From NCBI RefSeq assembly GCF_020921035.1, contig NC_063151.1:8122001-8186000 (forward strand): a stretch of 64,000 nucleotides of DNA, in the 5' to 3' direction. Source of the DNA: Rhodamnia argentea. Its lineage: Eukaryota; Streptophyta; Magnoliopsida; Myrtales; Myrtaceae. This document shows, piece after piece, positions 8,340 to 61,000 of this stretch. Made by a program: the position numbers and the translations under genes. The number at the start of each line of letters is the position of its first letter. Positions within the stretch are counted from its first letter, which is position 1. The notes under the pieces are model-generated. The model was not told where the DNA came from. It saw only the letters and a program-made list of their open reading frames with translations, and did no database searches.

Positions 8340-8583
8340 CCATGCTAGGTCGTCCCTTGCCTAGGTGAGGCCGGCATCGCCCAAGGCTTGCCTGTGGTGG
8401 GCAAGGGTGACCTTCGCCCGACCCTTTTCGGCAAACCGGCCATTGATGAAAAGAAAAGAAAAATTAGAAGAAGGAAAAAAATTCGAAAAACTAAAAGGCA
8501 AAAATACTCTTGACCAATTGAATGTTAAACCCTTATTTGAAAAAACGATAGTACTTGAGGCCTTTATTTGAAAATTTTACCCT
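8340..8583. mobile_element. Truncated MULE-type non-autonomous element
   Basis: A GC-rich core (8340-8445) is followed by an A-rich linker and a terminal sequence whose reverse complement begins GGGTAAAATTTTCAAATAAA and has a second internal CAAATAAGGG motif. The same layout is found at the ends of the element at 35431-36713. No matching left end is visible, so the element is truncated or badly diverged. It encodes nothing. Confidence 0.4.
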
Positions 8584-21847: not shown

Positions 21848-21855
21848 TATAAAAG
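21848..21855 (+). promoter_or_regulatory. TATA box, first duplicated gene
   Basis: TATAAAAG, 92 bp upstream of the start codon. The duplicate has TATAAAAT in the equivalent place. Confidence 0.6.
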
Positions 21856-21939
21856 CCTTCACAGTCGCTTTGTTAATCAATACACAGAATCGCAGACAAA
21901 AACAGAGAAGTGATCACCGAGCAAAGCTTGTGAGCAGCA

Positions 21940-22888
21940 ATGGGTTCTTTAATGGCGGGTTGGGACTCGCCGGTCCTTGATCCTAAGCATTGTAAGCCCG
22001 TCTTCCTCATTGCCACTGCCACTTTAGCCAGCAGGGTAAGGCCAAAAATTCTGAATCTTGAATCTTTTTGCAGTGGCTTACCAGAGGAACAGATCGTTCA
22101 CTCAAGGACAAATAGAAGCTTATTGGAGGTCGAGGAAGGAGAGAGCAGAGGAAGAGCTGCGTAAAGCCCCATCCGATGGTACTCGGGTAAAAATTTCTTC
22201 ACTTCATCGTTTTGATGTTCTACCGTTTTGTGTGTAGACACGGATGTGAGAATTGTCGAACTTGTGAATTGGTAGTAAAGAACGGTTCTTTCTGTGGTTG
22301 GTTTTGTTGCGACAGGAGATGGTGTTCGAAGAGTGTGAAAGAAAGCACAAGGGATCGGACTCGCTGCCGGCGGAGCTGGAAGCTGAGACGACCTGGGCGA
22401 GACTCTTCAATAACAGAGGCTGGTGAGTCGAGTATTGCATGATGCTCGGATCGCCGGGGCGTCCTGAGAACCCGGCTGTTCATAGTGATAGCGGCGGGTG
22501 TTATTTCATGCATTGACTTTTATACGGTGTGCATGTGATAGAGAAAATTTACGCATATTCGTTCGGATTAACTGCGTTAAGACCTGAACATGAATTCATC
22601 TGTCTTCTTTTTTAAAATATCAGTTTTTAGTACTCACTTTTCCTTTTATATTATTACATTTGAGGTCGTTAAGCTTGATAGAATTTGAACTACAGTCAAA
22701 TGATTGGCAGGTGGACCAGAAGCAGTTGGGCATTTCTGAATGAACCGCCGGTATTCGAAGGGAGCACCAACAGCTACCCCTCTCAATTCCACATTGCCAA
22801 CCTCCACACAAGTCAAAGGCTTGAATCACGGAACGAGAAAGCTAATCGGGGCTTGTTTGCACAGAATGAGTTTGCTTTGCAATCGTAG
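21940..22888 (+). CDS. Uncharacterised small plant protein, duplicate 1
   Basis: Four coding exons: 21940-21991, 22074-22186, 22316-22422 and 22711-22888, all GT-AG, giving 149 residues. The protein begins MGSLMAGWDSPVLDPKH, has a charged helical middle (RNRSFTQGQIEAYWRSRKER), then SLPAELEAETTWARLF, and a conserved end containing NRGWWTRSSWAFLNEPPVF. This belongs to a plant-specific family of small proteins starting MGSLMAGWDSP and ending (N)GWWT(R/K)SNWAFLNEPPV; I know no established function. Relative to its neighbour copy it carries two extra bases in the last exon (LHTSQRL versus LHKSNA), which shifts the frame past the duplicate's stop and adds about 22 residues unique to this copy. No signal peptide or membrane segment is visible. 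Confidence 0.85.
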
Positions 22889-24932
22889 TTTGTAACTCTG
22901 TAGGTATGTATATACATATGTATGTGATACACATAAGTTATGTGTATAATGTTGAGGAGGCGTTGTACAATGTTGAGGACTTTCAATGTATGAGAGAGTA
23001 AAAGGGTTTGGATAGAGTTCGGATCTGCCTCACGTGCTGTCGGAGTGTTAGGTTTAAACCGCTGACGAAACGCCAACTGCCAATAGGCGAGCGTGTCGTT
23101 ATAGTCCTACTACCAAGTGCTAGTGGAGAAGCCTACTATCGGCCATACACCTAAGTCCAACCCCGTTCTCTGCAAACTAACTGAGGCTTCCTACGACCTA
23201 GGATAGATCGGAGAGTCCAACCCATAACATTTGGCTTACAAATCAAGTCTTGAACTACTCAAATAACTCCCTTGGCGGTGACAAATTACGTTTCCTATAT
23301 GGGTGTTCTGTCCATATTATTTGTCTATTCAATAAACGGAATGACAGATAAATATGTCAATGACACTGAGGCTCACACGAAAAAAAAAAAAAAAAAGGAA
23401 GTTATGAGAATTGCTACTAAGGGTGAGCAAAAAGAATCGATCGAATTGAGAATCGGCGGGTTTGGTCCGATTCCTAGAAGCGTCAATCTGGTTCTCCGGT
23501 TTCATAAAAACGAAACCCGATAATTCTCTATTCGATTCTCGGTTCCAAGGGTGGAACCGACCACCCGGACCGGATCGACAAATTTTTTTTTAATTTTTTT
23601 TAATTTTTTAAACATCTTTGAAAAAATCATTTAAACTCTTAAACTATTATGGGAACTTCTACACATTTAAAATGTGAATATATGTTTCAAGCAAATGGGA
23701 CAGGTTCCACTAGACCGCCCGAGAACCGGAACTGGACCCATTAAGGCCCATCAGCCCAAAATGAACAATGATCGAGCACGGCCGAGCTTCTCCTTTCTTA
23801 CGTATGGCCTGCTTTAAGCCCATCCAAGCCGAATAATATAATAAAAGGTCACTTGATTAACTTTGAAGTATATTTTGATAAAAAAAAACTTTGAAATGGG
23901 CTTTTTGGTCCGGCCCATCGCATTGATCGGGTCCAGTTACTCCTCGAGAACCCGCCCGAACCTCCTTCGAGGTCAAGATCGACCATCATTTCAGTAATTG
24001 ATAACGAAAAATGTGTCGTTTTGGAAGGAACCAAATAAAGTCTCAATTATGAACAAATCAAGATGGATTTGAGAAGTCGACAGTATAACAGTATAATGGT
24101 GCAATCTCAATCGCAAGTGTTATGAATGGAAAAAAATACTTAGAAACCATTACGGGACCTATTGCCGATGTAATGCCTAGCATTCTACTGTTATCTTGTC
24201 ATACCGGCATGTTAGCAGGACCCTCCTACAAATTTCTGAGGATCACAAAATAATTTTTGGATGGTCGATCGATTTGATGAGCCAAGATAGAACGCATTTG
24301 ATGGTATCAAATCGTTGTGTTTGGCCACGCATGCGATGTCGATTGCCGGGGAATGATTCTAACATTACGATCGGATTATAACTTTTCCTAAATATAGAAA
24401 CTTTAGGATTAATAAACTAAACCTTTCCCCTAAAAAAAGGAAAAAAAATAAGAAATGTCGTATCTTATACTTGTATTTTTTTCTACAAAACCAAGTTACT
24501 TCGAAGCATGTGTGAAGATAGAGCAAAAAAAAAAAAAAACTCCATTTGAATGTTTCAAAGTAAATTAATAATACCTAACTATATCAATATTTAAACATTT
24601 GAGTAAAAGTAAGTCGAATAGGATGTACGAAGAGGCTCAATTTTATTACCTCATCTTAGAACTCTCTTTGTGAAGATCGGGGCTTCACATTTCGTTTCCC
24701 CAACTATTGTGGAAGTCGTGGCCACAATCAATATCAAATTACTAGGGTGGCTTACGAAAACGCCCAAATCAAAAGGGTAAATATAGCGTCAATAGAGCAG
24801 AGGCTCCTCATAAACGAGCAAGCATGGTCCAAGAGATTAATCTAAGGGAAAGAATATTGTAATTCTAGCATAATATTGTCATATTCAAACAACAACAACT
24901 TAACCACTCGGTCAAATTTTTTCCACATCAAC

Positions 24933-25976: not shown

Positions 25977-26077
25977 AAAAAAAAAAACAACCCTTTCCAG
26001 CCGCTTTTGTGAAGCGATCGAAGAATCGCAGACGAGACCCAAAAGGGTGACCGCTGAGCAAAGCTTTGCGAGCAACG

Positions 26078-26969
26078 ATGGGTTCTTTAATGGCGGGTTG
26101 GGACTCGCCGGTCCTTGATCCTAAGCACGGTAAGCCATCTTCCCTCGTTGCTGCGATCGCTTTAGCCAGTAGGGTAAGGCTAAAAAATTTGAACCTTGGG
26201 TGTTTTGCAGTGGCTTACCAGAGGAACAGATCGTTCACTAAAGAGGAAGTAGAAGCTTATCGGAGGTCGAAGGAGGAGAAAGCAGGGGAAGAGCTGCGTA
26301 AAGCCCCATCCTTCGGCGCTCGGGTAAAAAATACTTGTTCCATTTCTTCCTTTCGATTTCTACCGTTTCGTGTGCAGATATGATCATATATGTATGTGCG
26401 AATCGTCGAACTTATGAATTGGTGGTTGGTTCTTTGGCGAATGGTTTTGCTGCGACAGGAGACGGTGTTCGAAGAGCGCGCAAGAAAGCACGAGAGATCG
26501 AACTCGCTGCCGGCGGAGCTGGAAGCCGACACGGCCTGGGCGAGGCTCATCAGCAACAAAGGCTGGTGAGTTTAAGTACTACATGATTTAGGAACAAAAA
26601 AGAAGTTACTACTAAATACTCCGAGACTGATCGAGTGATTAACCCTCTAATTTGAATGACGGAGATGTCTTGCTTGAACTATTGTGATTGCCGTCGAGAC
26701 AAGACAATTTACCCACACCCATTCAGGTTAATTGCGTTAAGATCCGAATGTTAATTTACTTTGCTTTTTTCGATCATTTTCAAGTATTCGATTTTTTTCG
26801 TTAATTTGGGGCTATTAAAGCTGGATAGAATTTTGGTTATAATCAAATACTTGACAGGTGGACCAGGAGCAATTGGGCATTCCTGAATGAACCGCCGGTA
26901 TTTGAAGGGAGCACCAACAGCTACTCCTCTCAGTTCCACGTTGCCAATCTCCACAAGTCGAACGCTTGA
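26078..26969 (+). CDS. Uncharacterised small plant protein, duplicate 2
   Basis: Four coding exons: 26078-26129, 26211-26323, 26459-26565 and 26858-26969. The first three have exactly the lengths of the neighbour copy (52, 113, 107 nt). The protein has 127 residues: the same MGSLMAGWDSPVLDPKH start, RNRSFTKEEVEAYRRSKEEK helix, SLPAELEADTAWARL and NKGWWTRSNWAFLNEPPVF end, finishing LHKSNA. This C-terminus fits the family's usual end as I recall it, so this copy looks ancestral in form and the neighbour extended. Intact splice sites and frame suggest both are functional. Function unknown. Confidence 0.85.
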
Positions 26970-27244
26970 ATCACACGACGAGAAAGTAAATATGGGCTTT
27001 GCTTGCACCGAAATGGTTGCTTTGCAATCGTAGTTTGTAACACTATGGGTATGTAAATATTTACGTATTCGATACGTGCAATCTCGGAGTGATGTGTATA
27101 GCGTCTCGAAGGCGGTGTAAAATGTTGACGACTTTGAATGTGATCTTGTATGAGCTCTTGTTCTCTGCTAGTGGTAAAGAAGTGAAGACTCTTCGGCTAT
27201 AATTGGCAATGGCTTGTTGGAATATTAAGTTTAAGCCGCTAATG

Positions 27245-28559: not shown

Positions 28560-28714
28560 TCGGCAGTGATGAGACAACGGCTCTGCATAAGAGGAGCAGG
28601 AACGTAGCTCCTGATGTTAATCAGCCCTTTGGGGCCCAGTGATGGAACGACGGCTCTACATAAGTGGGGCGACAACGTAGCTCCTAATGTTAGTCAGCCC
28701 TTTGGGGCTCCAAA
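28560..28714. repeat. 73-bp tandem duplication
   Basis: Two adjacent copies with period 73 share acggctct(g/a)cataag, cgtagctcct(g/a)atgtta and cagccctttggggc. The first copy belongs to the end of the duplicated arm, so this duplication is younger than the arm. Confidence 0.8.
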
Positions 28715-35420: not shown

Positions 35421-35430
35421 AAAAACCTTC

Positions 35431-36713
35431 GGAGAAATTTCAAATAAGGACTCGAAGTGGAGCTATTTTCTCAAAAAAGAGTCTAGGGTGGATGATATCT
35501 CAAATAAGTGCCTTGAGTGACCAATTAGTTTCAAATAAGGGCCTGAGTGAGAATGTGCATTTCACATGCCAGTTTCCAAAGGCACGATGGGGGCATTTTC
35601 GGATTTTTGTTTTTTCTTTTCGTTTCTCTCTTTCATCTCCTTCTTCGTTCATTCCCCCCAACACCTTCGTGATCGTACAGCCTCGCGAGCCCGAAGCCAC
35701 CGAGCCTCCCGTTCAATTCCTCATCCAGCAACACATTGCTGGCTCTTCACGTCCCTTTGAATGACCACTTGCTCATACCCCTCGGCAAATAAAGGAGCCC
35801 TGAAGCAACACCCTTCAGTACCCGAAACCTCTGTTCCCAGAACAGAGTAACCTTAGGCTCGTCGAACAGGAACCTGTCCAAGCTCCCGTTCCCCATGTAC
35901 TCGTACACCAGCAGAAGATCACCCCTCTATCCGGCGCCAGCCCTGGAGCTGGACCAGGTTCCAGTGGCTGAGCCACTGGATGCTCGCGATCTCCGACACG
36001 AATTCCCGGAGGCCCTACTTCGACTTGTGCGAGACCCGCTTCACTGCAACCTGGATCTTGGACAAGGTCCCCTAGTACACTTTGCCGAACCCGCCTTGCT
36101 CGAGAAGCTCTTTCTCCTTGAACCCATTCGTGGCTTGCTTGAGTTCTTGGTAGGAGAATCGCTAGGGACCGATTTTGAGCTCCCACTGCTCGACCACATC
36201 GGCGTTCTTGATCCTCTGGAAAATCAGGACCATAAGAAAAATAGCAGACACTGCAAGAACAGCTAATGACACTGACACTGCATATCACACGCCGCTGCCT
36301 GGTTTTGCATCCCCGCTGAAATCTAGCTTGGCCTGATTGTCGGGTCGACGGTGTCATCACATCTTCTAGCTGCTTGCCACTAGCCACCCCGCAAGCCCAA
36401 GTCATCTCCATTGATCAGCTTGTGAGATTGATAAGAAATGGTCATGTTTGGCCAAAAAGAAAGTCAACCAGAGAGTTGGCCGGAAGAATAAAGAGGAAGA
36501 AGGGGATGAACCTAGAAAATTAGGAAAGAAAAAGAAAAAACGTGTTCCGAGACAAGAATACCCTAATAAAATGGCATGCGAGATGCATGTTTTTGCTCAG
36601 GCCGTTATTTGAGACCAAGCTAGTCACTTCAGGCCCTTATATGATACAATGCTTGACTTTTGACCTTTTTTGAGAAAACGGCTACACTTCGAACTCTTAT
36701 TTTGAATTTTCCC
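35431..36713. mobile_element. Pack-MULE-like transposon with captured kinase fragment
   Basis: A 1,283-bp element. The left end (ggagaaatttcaaataagg, then ctcgaagtggagct, ttttctcaaaaaa, caaataagtgcc, tttcaaataagggcctgag) matches the reverse complement of the right end (gggaaaattcaaaataagag, ttcgaagtgtagcc, ttttctcaaaaaa, catataagggcc, tctcaaataacggcctgag) for about 150 bp. Direct repeats AAAAACCTTC at 35421-35430 and 36714-36723 flank it, fitting the 9-10 bp target duplication of Mutator-like elements. There is no transposase, so it is non-autonomous. The interior carries a lectin-receptor-kinase fragment and unassigned sequence (35590-35760). This combination of long TIRs, target duplication and host gene fragment defines a Pack-MULE. 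Confidence 0.85.
35763..36400 (-). pseudogene. Captured L-type lectin receptor kinase fragment
   Basis: Read on the minus strand within the transposon. It gives a membrane segment (VSVSLAVLAVSAIFLMVLIF) followed by the juxtamembrane RFSYQELKQATNGFKEKELL, the glycine loop GGFGKVY, the VAIK-type IQVAVKRVSHKSK, then LREFVSEIASIQWLSHWNLV, and further on, in another frame, [18 protein letters not shown] and [15 protein letters not shown]. This is the lectin-receptor-kinase order (TM, juxtamembrane, first kinase lobe). The rest of the kinase and nearly all of the lectin domain are missing. At least four in-frame stops and one frameshift near the GWRRIEG segment show that it cannot encode the parent protein. 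The fragment appears to retain exon sequence only. Confidence 0.8.
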
Positions 36714-36723
36714 AAAAACCTTC

Positions 36724-40889: not shown

Positions 40890-41192
40890 GGGAAATGGCT
40901 AGAAAAAATTTCAAACCAACACGCTCTTATTGTCTCAAATAAAGGCAGTTGCTAAGGTGGCCTTGCCCTTCCTAAGTGAGGGTTGCCGGCCGAAACAAAG
41001 CAAAAAAATGAAATGGGAAAATATAAAAGAAAAAAACGATAGAAAAATCAAAAAAGAAATGATGAAAGGGTCATTGGTCGGGCTTTTTTTAGAAATAAAA
41101 AGGGCACTTCAAGTTTTTATTTGAAATAAGGTTCACTTTAGCATTTTATTTAAGAAAATAAAATCTCTTCAAGCTCTAATTTGGATTTTCCC
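40890..41192. mobile_element. Short MULE-type non-autonomous element
   Basis: The right end, reverse complemented, reads GGGAAAATCCAAATTAGAGC, then CTTGAAGAG and ATTTCAAATAA, as in the Pack-MULE termini. The left side has matching but decayed motifs (aatttcaaaccaac, tctcaaataaagg). The core is GC-rich at 40950-40990. Coordinates are approximate on the left and no target duplication is found. Confidence 0.45.
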
Positions 41193-58074: not shown

Positions 58075-61000
58075 ATGTCGACGGAGTACCAAGCTTCGGC
58101 TCCTCCATTCGCGAGAAAGCTCGTGAGCGGGCGGAGCTTCAGCGGGACGAGCATCTACGACGGGGTCTTCGCCGGCCCGGGAAAATACGGAGTCTCCGGC
58201 GTCTCTTCCCGGGCGGAGAACTACGCTGAGATCTTCGGAGGCTCCAGGGACGCGCGCCGCTCTTCGATCCCCGTGCTCGACTTCCCCGGCCTCCACGAGA
58301 GGAAGGTCTCGGTGGATGTTCGGAGCTCGAAGCTCGATTACTCCAAAATATTCGGCGGTTTCGGCGATTTCGGTGATACGGCGTCTTACGAGGAACTGGT
58401 GAATAAGCGCACCGAGAGCAGGAGTTTCGCGAGGCAAGTTCGCATTCCTCTTTTTTTTGCTTGCTTTGCATGTGGTGGTGTTTCTGTTGAATGGGCGCTG
58501 GAAGGGCACGTAGTGACTCCAGTTGCTGGGGTTGATGTTATGTTGACCGGAATATGAGTGCGTTGTTGGGATCGACTTTGAATTGCCTCCGTGTGCTGTA
58601 ATAGTGCGCAAGTTCTGTTTTTTATTTCCATTAGCTTTATCCAGTACTAAGAATCAACTTTCAGTAAGTCAAAAAGCTGAAGAATGCAGTTTTGCTGGCT
58701 AAAGAATGGCTGTGTTTGCACATTGTTGATAGCCTTTCTTTAGTTAGTGGCAGAGTTGAGAGTGGGCTATTTTGGACAGGGATGCGTTCGTTTTGTGGGT
58801 CGTCGTGTGAAATGGTATGTGTTGGACAGAAACATTAGCTTAGACATTTTTACGAAGTAGGAGTTAAAGAGCAAGGAACCATGCAGATGTTCCAAGAGTT
58901 TTTGCAAGGTTTTGAGGTTATGAGGTATTGATTAAGCACAAGCATCCGACACATCAAGCTGCTTCTTTTTATTGCCTCCCCTTCAATTTTGGGCGCTCTG
59001 CCTGTTTAGGAAATTTGAATTCTAAAGCAGGAGAAGAAAGAACTCTGGAGATAGAGTACTCTGGCAAAGGATATTTCTTGTTTAGGGATTAATTCAATGT
59101 TTGTCAATGGCAGCTTAATTAGTCTTTCTTTGATAAGAATCTGTGGAGAGCTTATGAGGTTTATAAAAAAGTGAGCTGTTGGGTTTTTTTTTTTTTTTTT
59201 TGGTCCAAGAGCTGTTGGGTTTAAGAGAGACGATTTTCGTTAAGTAAAAGTTGGACGCTGAGTACTTGAAATAGCTCATGATTCCATTTGCTCTTCCTTC
59301 ATCATTCTTTGTGACCCAGTTTTGGACGCTGAGTACTTGAAATAGTTCATGATTCCATTTGCTCTTCCTTTATCATTCAGTGTGACCCAGCTCACCCTTG
59401 ACTGCATCTTTGTTTGCGCTTGAGCTAAACTTGTGACCATGTGATGTGACTATTTGTGTTTCAACTTGTCTAGGACACAAGATAGCATGAGGTCCTCTTC
59501 AAAATTGTCTTCCAGTAGCTTGAATGAGACTCAGGTGTCGTGTCATGAAGCATCATACCATTCACGTGATAGGGAGAAGAAGTTCAATGTCTCCTACAGC
59601 AAAGTAAATTTGGAAACCAATGGCGAAACAAATAAGAGAGTGCACATTGCCCAGCTTGGAGATGTACCAGGATATGCCCATGTAATTGAAGAAACTGCTC
59701 CCTTGGAACAGTCAAAAGGCAATAAGCCACAGTCTGTGGTTGTGAATGGTTATGCTAGTGGAGATGCTGGTGATGGAATGGTGAATGCCAACAATTGCGA
59801 GAAAGCCATGTCAGGAGTCTCGGCTACCGGTTCTGACAAACCTTCTACAAAAGAAGGGATCTCCATTCAGAAATCTGATCGAAATAGATCGTTTACAACT
59901 GATCTGTTTTTTGGCACATATGAATATGGGCTTAGAAAAGAACCTTTTGGATCTCAAACTCCGATTGACGTCCCATCTAACTCAAAAATATTTGGGGTTT
60001 CTCCAAGCAATGCTTTTGAAGATGTTGCTGGTGTTTATTCGCCACCTGACTTTGATGACAATGTGGATGCAAATTCAGTTGCTGCTGCCTCTGCAGCTGC
60101 AGTGAAGAAAGCAATTGAGAAGGCTCAAGCAAAAATTAAAGTTGCAAGGGAACTAATGGAAAGACGGAAGGAAGGTCTTCAAGGCCACGTAAACTTTAAG
60201 GAAAAGATCGGGGCCGAAGACAAGAGGGCACGGAAAATGGCTAAGAAAGCTAACAGATGCAGTGAGAAGGAACCTCAGAAAATAGGTGAAACTGATAATC
60301 GTGCACAGTTGGCTGCAAGGGCTAGAGGGGCCAATAATGAAAACCTGGGCTTTGTAAATGTAGAATCTGGTGACAAGGAGAACGTTTCCAGTTCAAAAAC
60401 ATTCTCTGGAAGCATACTTCAGCAGGCAAACAAAGAAATTCATGCAGATTTGAGGCTAGGAAAGGTAGGGGAAGAAGCAGAAAATTCTTATGAAGCTGCT
60501 CAAACAAAGCAAAATGGATCAGTGCCAATAGAGCAGCAGAAGGAAGGGATAGGAGTGAATGATATGATGCCATCTTGTGATGAGTGTTCAAGTGAAACCC
60601 TTGCGAAGATAGATTTTGAGCGTTCAACTGTTGAAGAGGCTCTTGATGAGGAGAAAATTGATGAGAAACTGCTTGGCGTAACAGGGGCACAAGAAGGTGA
60701 CAAGCAAGAAGTCAAGGTCCAATCTGCTCAAGGATTGACTCATCCAGAAGAGAGTGAAATTAAGGTAGAAGTAGCACTGGAGCAAGAAGGCAATCTGTGG
60801 AAGTTCATGAAATTTTTTAATCCTTGGCAAAGTCAGGGTAAACCAAAGGAATTGAACAAATCTGAGTTTGATCAAAGGCTTGAAGCTCAGGATTTGGACA
60901 AAAATAATTTACGGAGTCTTGGGGAGGAGTGTGATTGGGAAGGGAATAAGATGAAACAAATAGAAGCTCACAAGAGAGAACTGACTAGTGCACATAATCA

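Follow-up and report, generated by a model that had tools for sequence, protein, structure and literature searches.

How did part of a receptor kinase gene come to lie between two inverted copies of one sequence on contig C2 of Rhodamnia argentea, and what might the fragment still do there? The window, by which we mean the whole stretch of 64,000 nucleotides that was analysed (C2:8122001-8186000), had been given a first-pass annotation that read this locus as a host gene fragment caught by a non-autonomous Mutator-like element (MULE). Searches of the genome (346.7 Mb in 74 contigs) bear that reading out, since they recover a donor gene, further copies flanked by different duplications and a MULE-type family to which the ends belong. 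The element is almost certainly a Pack-MULE, a non-autonomous MULE that carries a fragment of a host lectin receptor kinase gene. Below we set out the structure of the element, the donor and the copies, and we propose how the chimera arose and what the positions of the donors suggest about capture.

Boundaries, ends and genomic setting

The boundaries first placed at 35421-36723 proved exact, the 10-bp duplication AAAAACCTTC at both ends included, and the element proper occupies 35431-36713 (1283 bp; Table 1). MULEs are defined by a target-site duplication of 9–11 bp and by long terminal inverted repeats (TIRs), typically of 100–500 bp, according to the excerpted text of one survey (PMC3310237). 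The window copy has both: its duplication is an exact 10-bp repeat, and its ends are inverted copies of each other, as had been claimed, with 35435-35575 matching 36709-36568 at 74% over 143 columns (E about 2e-17). The flanking repeat could in principle have been a matter of chance, a concern raised in the first-pass annotation itself, but among 2000 random position pairs in the window an exact repeat of 9–11 bp occurred at only 2. Because the MULE library of one survey was built with an 80% cut-off for inverted ends (PMC3310237, in its excerpted part), the 74% identity seen here points to an old copy.

Table 1. Features of the element, in window coordinates.
Feature	Position	Strand	Remarks
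Left target-site duplication AAAAACCTTC	35421-35430		Exact 10-bp direct repeat at both element boundaries
Left MULE arm	35431-35648		TIR (35435-35575) and subterminal sequence common to other family elements
22-bp piece of donor 3' flank (C10:2860643-2860664)	35649-35670	-	Adjoins the kinase piece at a short shared ACGA
Captured lectin receptor kinase fragment, donor gene C10:2861061-2863151	35668-36275	-	86.8% identity to donor; frame broken
Right MULE arm	36276-36713		Subterminal segment and TIR (36568-36709)
Right target-site duplication AAAAACCTTC	36714-36723		Exact copy of the left one

The arms, together with part of the right interior, recur in two other family elements (L069 and L070) around other interiors. 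Specifically, the subterminal segment of the right arm is common to L070 from about 36292 and to L069 from about 36344. The left arm also contains three direct copies of a GAAATTTCAAATAAG-like 15-bp motif (at 35434, 35494 and 35525, with 80–100% identity and a spacing of 60 and 31 bp), and it is possible that these are putative repeated binding sites of a transposase.

The window is gene-bearing, with Pfam matches in 6 of the 10 reading frames scanned (ZF-HD, PPR, Rer1, a PF02458 transferase and two proteasome-subunit frames); scans of the window for Rfam families at the gathering threshold and for tRNAs gave no match. The nearest recognised gene to the element is RER1 on the minus strand, whose last-exon peptide was recognised by eye. 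The last base of its stop codon is 37453, which leaves 729 bp to the right target-site duplication. The kinase part of the element is sense in the same direction, so that read-through from RER1 would give sense RNA. Elsewhere, the window holds a direct repeat of about 1.15 kb (21853-22989 and 25989-27141; 74.5% identity, 3 kb apart, with short reading frames), which may be either an old local duplication or a pair of old long terminal repeats, as well as two-copy tandem repeats at 59251-59390 and 28564-28708 with units of 71 and 73 bp.

The captured fragment and its donor gene

Taken alone, the window sequence is weak evidence for the identity of the fragment. Two of its frames were scanned: one of 53 aa gave a kinase match below threshold (E 0.011, 15.5 bits against 23.1), and the other, which at 198 aa is the longest reading frame inside the element, gave no Pfam match. 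By way of the donor, the fragment can be assigned securely to a lectin receptor kinase. A DNA search of the genome with 35763-36400, proposed in the first-pass annotation as a means of finding the parent gene, returned 13 matches, namely the window itself, 7 long matches and 5 weaker ones. One of the long matches (L008, C10:2860227-2863751) holds an intact related gene, an open frame of 695 aa in which Lectin_legB spans residues 30-279 and a kinase domain spans 350-619. It had also been anticipated that a parent with introns and higher identity would support capture; the intact donor is there, but the intron comparison does not apply to it, as the donor is a single open frame.

The captured fragment corresponds to donor residues of about 299-505 and has no lectin part. 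It comprises the membrane segment, the juxtamembrane part, the N-lobe and the C-lobe as far as two motifs that we take to be HRD and DFG. The initial assignment of the interior to an L-type lectin receptor kinase is thus upheld, whereas its description as a membrane segment and first kinase lobe was too short. The window copy has its frame broken by five indels, three of them of a single base, and no kinase can be made from the fragment.

A second piece of the same locus adjoins the first. The match of 35649-35670 to the donor 3' flank is exact over 22 bp, and in the donor this sequence lies about 970 bp from the other captured piece. When a 21-mer of the flank was sought in the genome with up to one mismatch, it was found four times, once in the donor flank and three times in copies of the element, and its reversed control was not found at all. 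In copies that retain more sequence, the kinase and flank pieces are joined at ACGA, which occurs in the exon as well as in the flank, and TCATT marks the junction between the flank piece and the MULE arm; the right-hand join of the capture is less clean. The donor also carries 6 bp that are absent from the elements and from the outgroup. It may have been altered after the capture, or the true donor may be a sister gene that has since been lost.

Copies, insertions and decay

Seven long copies of the captured element were found, including the window copy on C2, one copy on C11 (L003) and five on C3 (L002 and L004-L007). The flanks of the C3 copies align with one another at 88–99% in the pieces reported, and in the printed flanks four of the five have TAATTCGAA on both sides, L002 having it on one side only with its other end lost. 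With their shared flanks and shared duplication, the C3 copies go back to a single insertion whose host region was later duplicated. The C11 copy has a duplication of its own, GTGTAATTT/GTATAATTT, a 9-bp repeat with one mismatch, and the flanks of neither this copy nor the C3 group match those of the window copy at E 1e-5. The seven copies represent at least three insertions (C2, C11 and C3), which differ in their duplications and have the capture in common. Of the features expected of a Pack-MULE, the element has a gene fragment, a donor elsewhere in the genome and transposition after capture. When the captured fragment was placed in a maximum-likelihood tree of 9 rows, all seven elements grouped together to the exclusion of donor and outgroup (98/95), and the five C3 copies formed a clade of their own (99/99).

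Counted by codon position, the window copy differs from the C11 copy by 22:19:21 and from the donor by 21:14:32, and the donor differs from the outgroup kinase by 42:29:115, which indicates that the copies have lost most coding constraint and that the donor has kept it. A strict neutral equality of codon positions is contradicted by several pairs of elements in which second positions differ less (for example, 26:15:28 for L002 and L003). Frame-breaking indels, that is, indels that are not multiples of three, are present in all seven copies. Between the window copy and the C11 copy, 10.4% of sites differ; a substitution rate of 7e-9 per site and year would convert this, very roughly, to 8 million years of divergence, and trees may evolve more slowly.

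The transposon family and the search for a transposase

The family to which the ends of the element belong is large. Allowing up to two mismatches, a pattern of 19 bp from the terminus has 1846 matches in the genome (958 + 888), compared with 8 (6 + 2) for the reversed control. Sixty end loci were fetched (L009-L068), several of them views of one element, and from these we picked 26 elements with paired inward-facing ends, a set that includes the copies in the window and on C11 and one of those on C3. We set aside repeat views of one element, three more C3 copies of the captured element (L041, L043 and L045), any locus that had a single end or whose second match was shorter than 30 bp, and a 0.45-kb pair in L027. 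A 9–11-bp duplication with at most one mismatch flanks 17 of the 26, compared with 59 of the 2000 random pairs from the window; in six others the best repeat in this comparison is only 8 bp, although one of these, the C11 copy, has the 9-bp repeat with one mismatch given above, and three have none. Two of the elements (L050 and L055) have the same duplication and are probably not independent within this set.

Other members of the family carry other gene fragments. A sister Pack-MULE at C2:28.996 Mb (L071, 383-2052) combines two captures: a thaumatin fragment (E 5e-9), which has its donor on C10, and part of a SINA-type gene, whose donor on C8 matches Sina_ZnF. A multi-copy subfamily (L031 1497-2721, L018, L028 and relatives) has a GC-rich fragment resembling a patatin-like phospholipase, for which the matches in L028 (E 4e-6) and L031 (7e-4) are both under Pfam's cut-off and which has 19 further long DNA matches at 80–88%. 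Neither the interior of L059, which by eye resembles a polygalacturonase, nor one frame of L063 had a Pfam match at E 0.01. Because this sample of captured genes was picked by similarity to the window element, we claim no enrichment for defence genes from the presence of lectin receptor kinase, thaumatin, patatin and SINA fragments.

Two further observations concern these relatives. At about 1242-2085, L070 is interrupted by some 845 bp of sequence that has many relatives; several of these occur in pairs about 5 kb apart, and the insert is probably a solo LTR inside a Pack-MULE. In the window, 41085-41162 and 8530-8577 are weak matches to the right end of L071, and no paired end was found near 41 kb.

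Matches to PF10551 are abundant in the genome (150 were scored of 474 candidates). These were compared by eye with the family ends (at least 40 and at least 41 matches), and among the PF10551 matches compared with the listed ends we found no autonomous element with ends of the family. Two transposase loci (L072 and L073) were rejected as autonomous partners, each having one family end; the second end was sought with the window element as query, a search that could miss a diverged end. A third locus (L075), with exact termini 4 kb apart, was also rejected, as it holds a 0.8-kb element at 274-1087 and its outer ends have no repeat.

A possible small-RNA function

It has been suggested that the element still acts, being transcribed and yielding small RNAs that would damp the donor or related receptor kinases. 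We consider this unlikely, even though part of the evidence favours it. Against the coding sequence of the donor, the 21-mers of the element (n = 1264) give 8 exact matches, 106 with up to one mismatch and 287 with up to two, and as the captured part has about 590 21-mers, roughly half of these are within two mismatches of the donor, a likeness that is compatible with targeting. Exact identity to the donor coding sequence extends over 24 bp at most, there are 27 exact 21-mers in the C3 copies L002 and L005, and captured sequences of maize, Pack-MULEs included, are described in the excerpts of PMC13317346 as siRNA reservoirs able to silence their donors. Against such a role stand the small number of exact 21-mers in the window copy and the arrangement of the inverted ends, which would pair with each other and not with the kinase part. 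Compared with one other lectin receptor kinase, the element has no 21-mer that is exact or within one mismatch, and six within two.

Origin of the chimera

Alignment to the donor locus demonstrates that a single host locus supplied both of the pieces that a non-autonomous MULE took up between its arms. One runs from the membrane segment to DFG of an L-type lectin receptor kinase gene, and the other is about 22 bp from the 3' flank of that gene. Two of the joins lie at short shared sequences, and we propose that these reflect template switching during repair or replication. The resulting chimera would have been mobilised by a transposase supplied from elsewhere, and it inserted at least three times, the C3 insertion being multiplied with its host region. 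The copy in the window landed at a distance of 729 bp past the stop codon of RER1; it has decayed since then and encodes no receptor. The fit to a Pack-MULE is weakened somewhat by ends that are only 74% alike, by the failure to find an autonomous partner among the PF10551 matches compared, by the 6 bp peculiar to the donor, by the shortness of the 3' flank piece and by the unclean right join.

Could the element instead carry a gene fragment that was retroposed? With a donor that is a single open frame, the absence of introns cannot exclude an RNA step; however, the element includes donor 3' flank from about 970 bp away from the exon breakpoint, and the alignment has no poly(A) tract at the join of exon and flank, so that we regard retroposition as very improbable. 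Less probable still is a degenerate lectin receptor kinase pseudogene, a tandem or segmental copy with repeats inserted on both sides by chance: although some of the 84 PF00139 matches in the genome are partial or contain stops, the element is without a lectin part, the C2, C3 and C11 copies start at the same donor breakpoint, the copies that keep the other side also have the joined flank piece (that of C11 has diverged too far for the one-mismatch pattern), each insertion sits between paired ends with a duplication of its own, the same ends enclose unrelated interiors elsewhere, and the reading is already refuted by breakpoints common to three sites whose flanks differ.

The donor neighbourhood on C10

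Returning to capture by a Pack-MULE, the positions of two donors are suggestive of where the captured DNA may come from. The thaumatin donor of L071, an open 288-aa frame with a full-length Thaumatin match (C10:2834996-2835859), is 25.2 kb from the lectin receptor kinase donor, and between the two sits a diverged MULE copy of the family (L076, C10:2840974-2841762) flanked by ATATTATTG/ATAGTATTG, a 9-bp duplication of its own that was read by eye. A uniform model puts at 4.4e-4 the chance of so close a spacing in any of 3 donor pairs, and the true chance is larger because genes are clustered and because the observation was made after looking. The number of family ends expected between the donors, 0.16 from the 1846 pattern matches, is too low because those matches do not include the resident copy, which has diverged too far. 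This copy matches the ends of the window element at 68–70% over 116–117 columns, a likeness too low for it to be the direct ancestor. In the 5.9 kb around the C8 donor of L071, no family end was found.

It is possible, though we hold it doubtful, that elements of this family capture from their own neighbourhood, the evidence being the donors of the window element and of L071 on C10. Coming from a single donor pair, neighbourhood capture is a hint and a lead to follow, and against it stand the low likeness of the resident copy to the window element and the negative search of the 5.9 kb around the C8 donor. If it holds, captures would record former sites of family members, and the C10 pair would be the trace left when templates for repair were picked close to an element already in residence. 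The pair thereby suggests a question that can be put to the genome as a whole, namely whether donors sit near copies of the family.

Comparison with known systems

The window element is a typical and firmly established Pack-MULE, ordinary in itself, and the kind of event that it represents is well documented. Counts of Pack-MULEs given in the excerpted text of PMC3310237 are 220 for tomato, 2853 for rice, 46 for Arabidopsis and 276 for maize, and a survey of lectin genes reports, in its excerpted part, 6 MULE-like elements within rice lectin genes, one of which supplies exons of a Gal_Lectin gene (PMC2846932). In a limited literature search (Pack-MULE, and Pack-MULE with lectin and receptor or with Myrtaceae), we found no earlier report of this capture and no papers pairing "Pack-MULE" with "Myrtaceae". 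What the locus offers is a capture that can be traced, with donor, breakpoints, joined flank piece, later insertions and regional duplication all readable. It is also one more case for the open question of how host DNA comes to be captured by MULEs.

In the passages available from PMC3310237 and PMC8903248, the Pack-MULEs of rice, maize, Arabidopsis and tomato resemble the window element in their non-autonomy, long inverted ends, 9–11-bp duplication, host gene fragment and several copies after one capture, and the size of the window element is near the 1000–1200 bp that is most common in tomato. It differs from them in the genome, in the donor gene and in the joining of two separated pieces of a donor locus, none of which is a difference in kind. 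The PM-ZIBP family of tomato, as excerpts of PMC3310237 present it, is alike in that one captured fragment has multiplied and the copies group with one donor. Tandem inverted ends occur in 13 of 14 PM-ZIBP copies, whereas the window element has three short direct sub-repeats in its left arm, and unlike in PM-ZIBP the largest group of copies here arose by duplication of the host region. The Pack-TIRs of animals, for which gap filling or fork switching is considered in the excerpted text of PMC8277862, also have short shared sequence at their joins; donors near the element are described there as well, and the corresponding proximity in our case is that of the single donor pair on C10.
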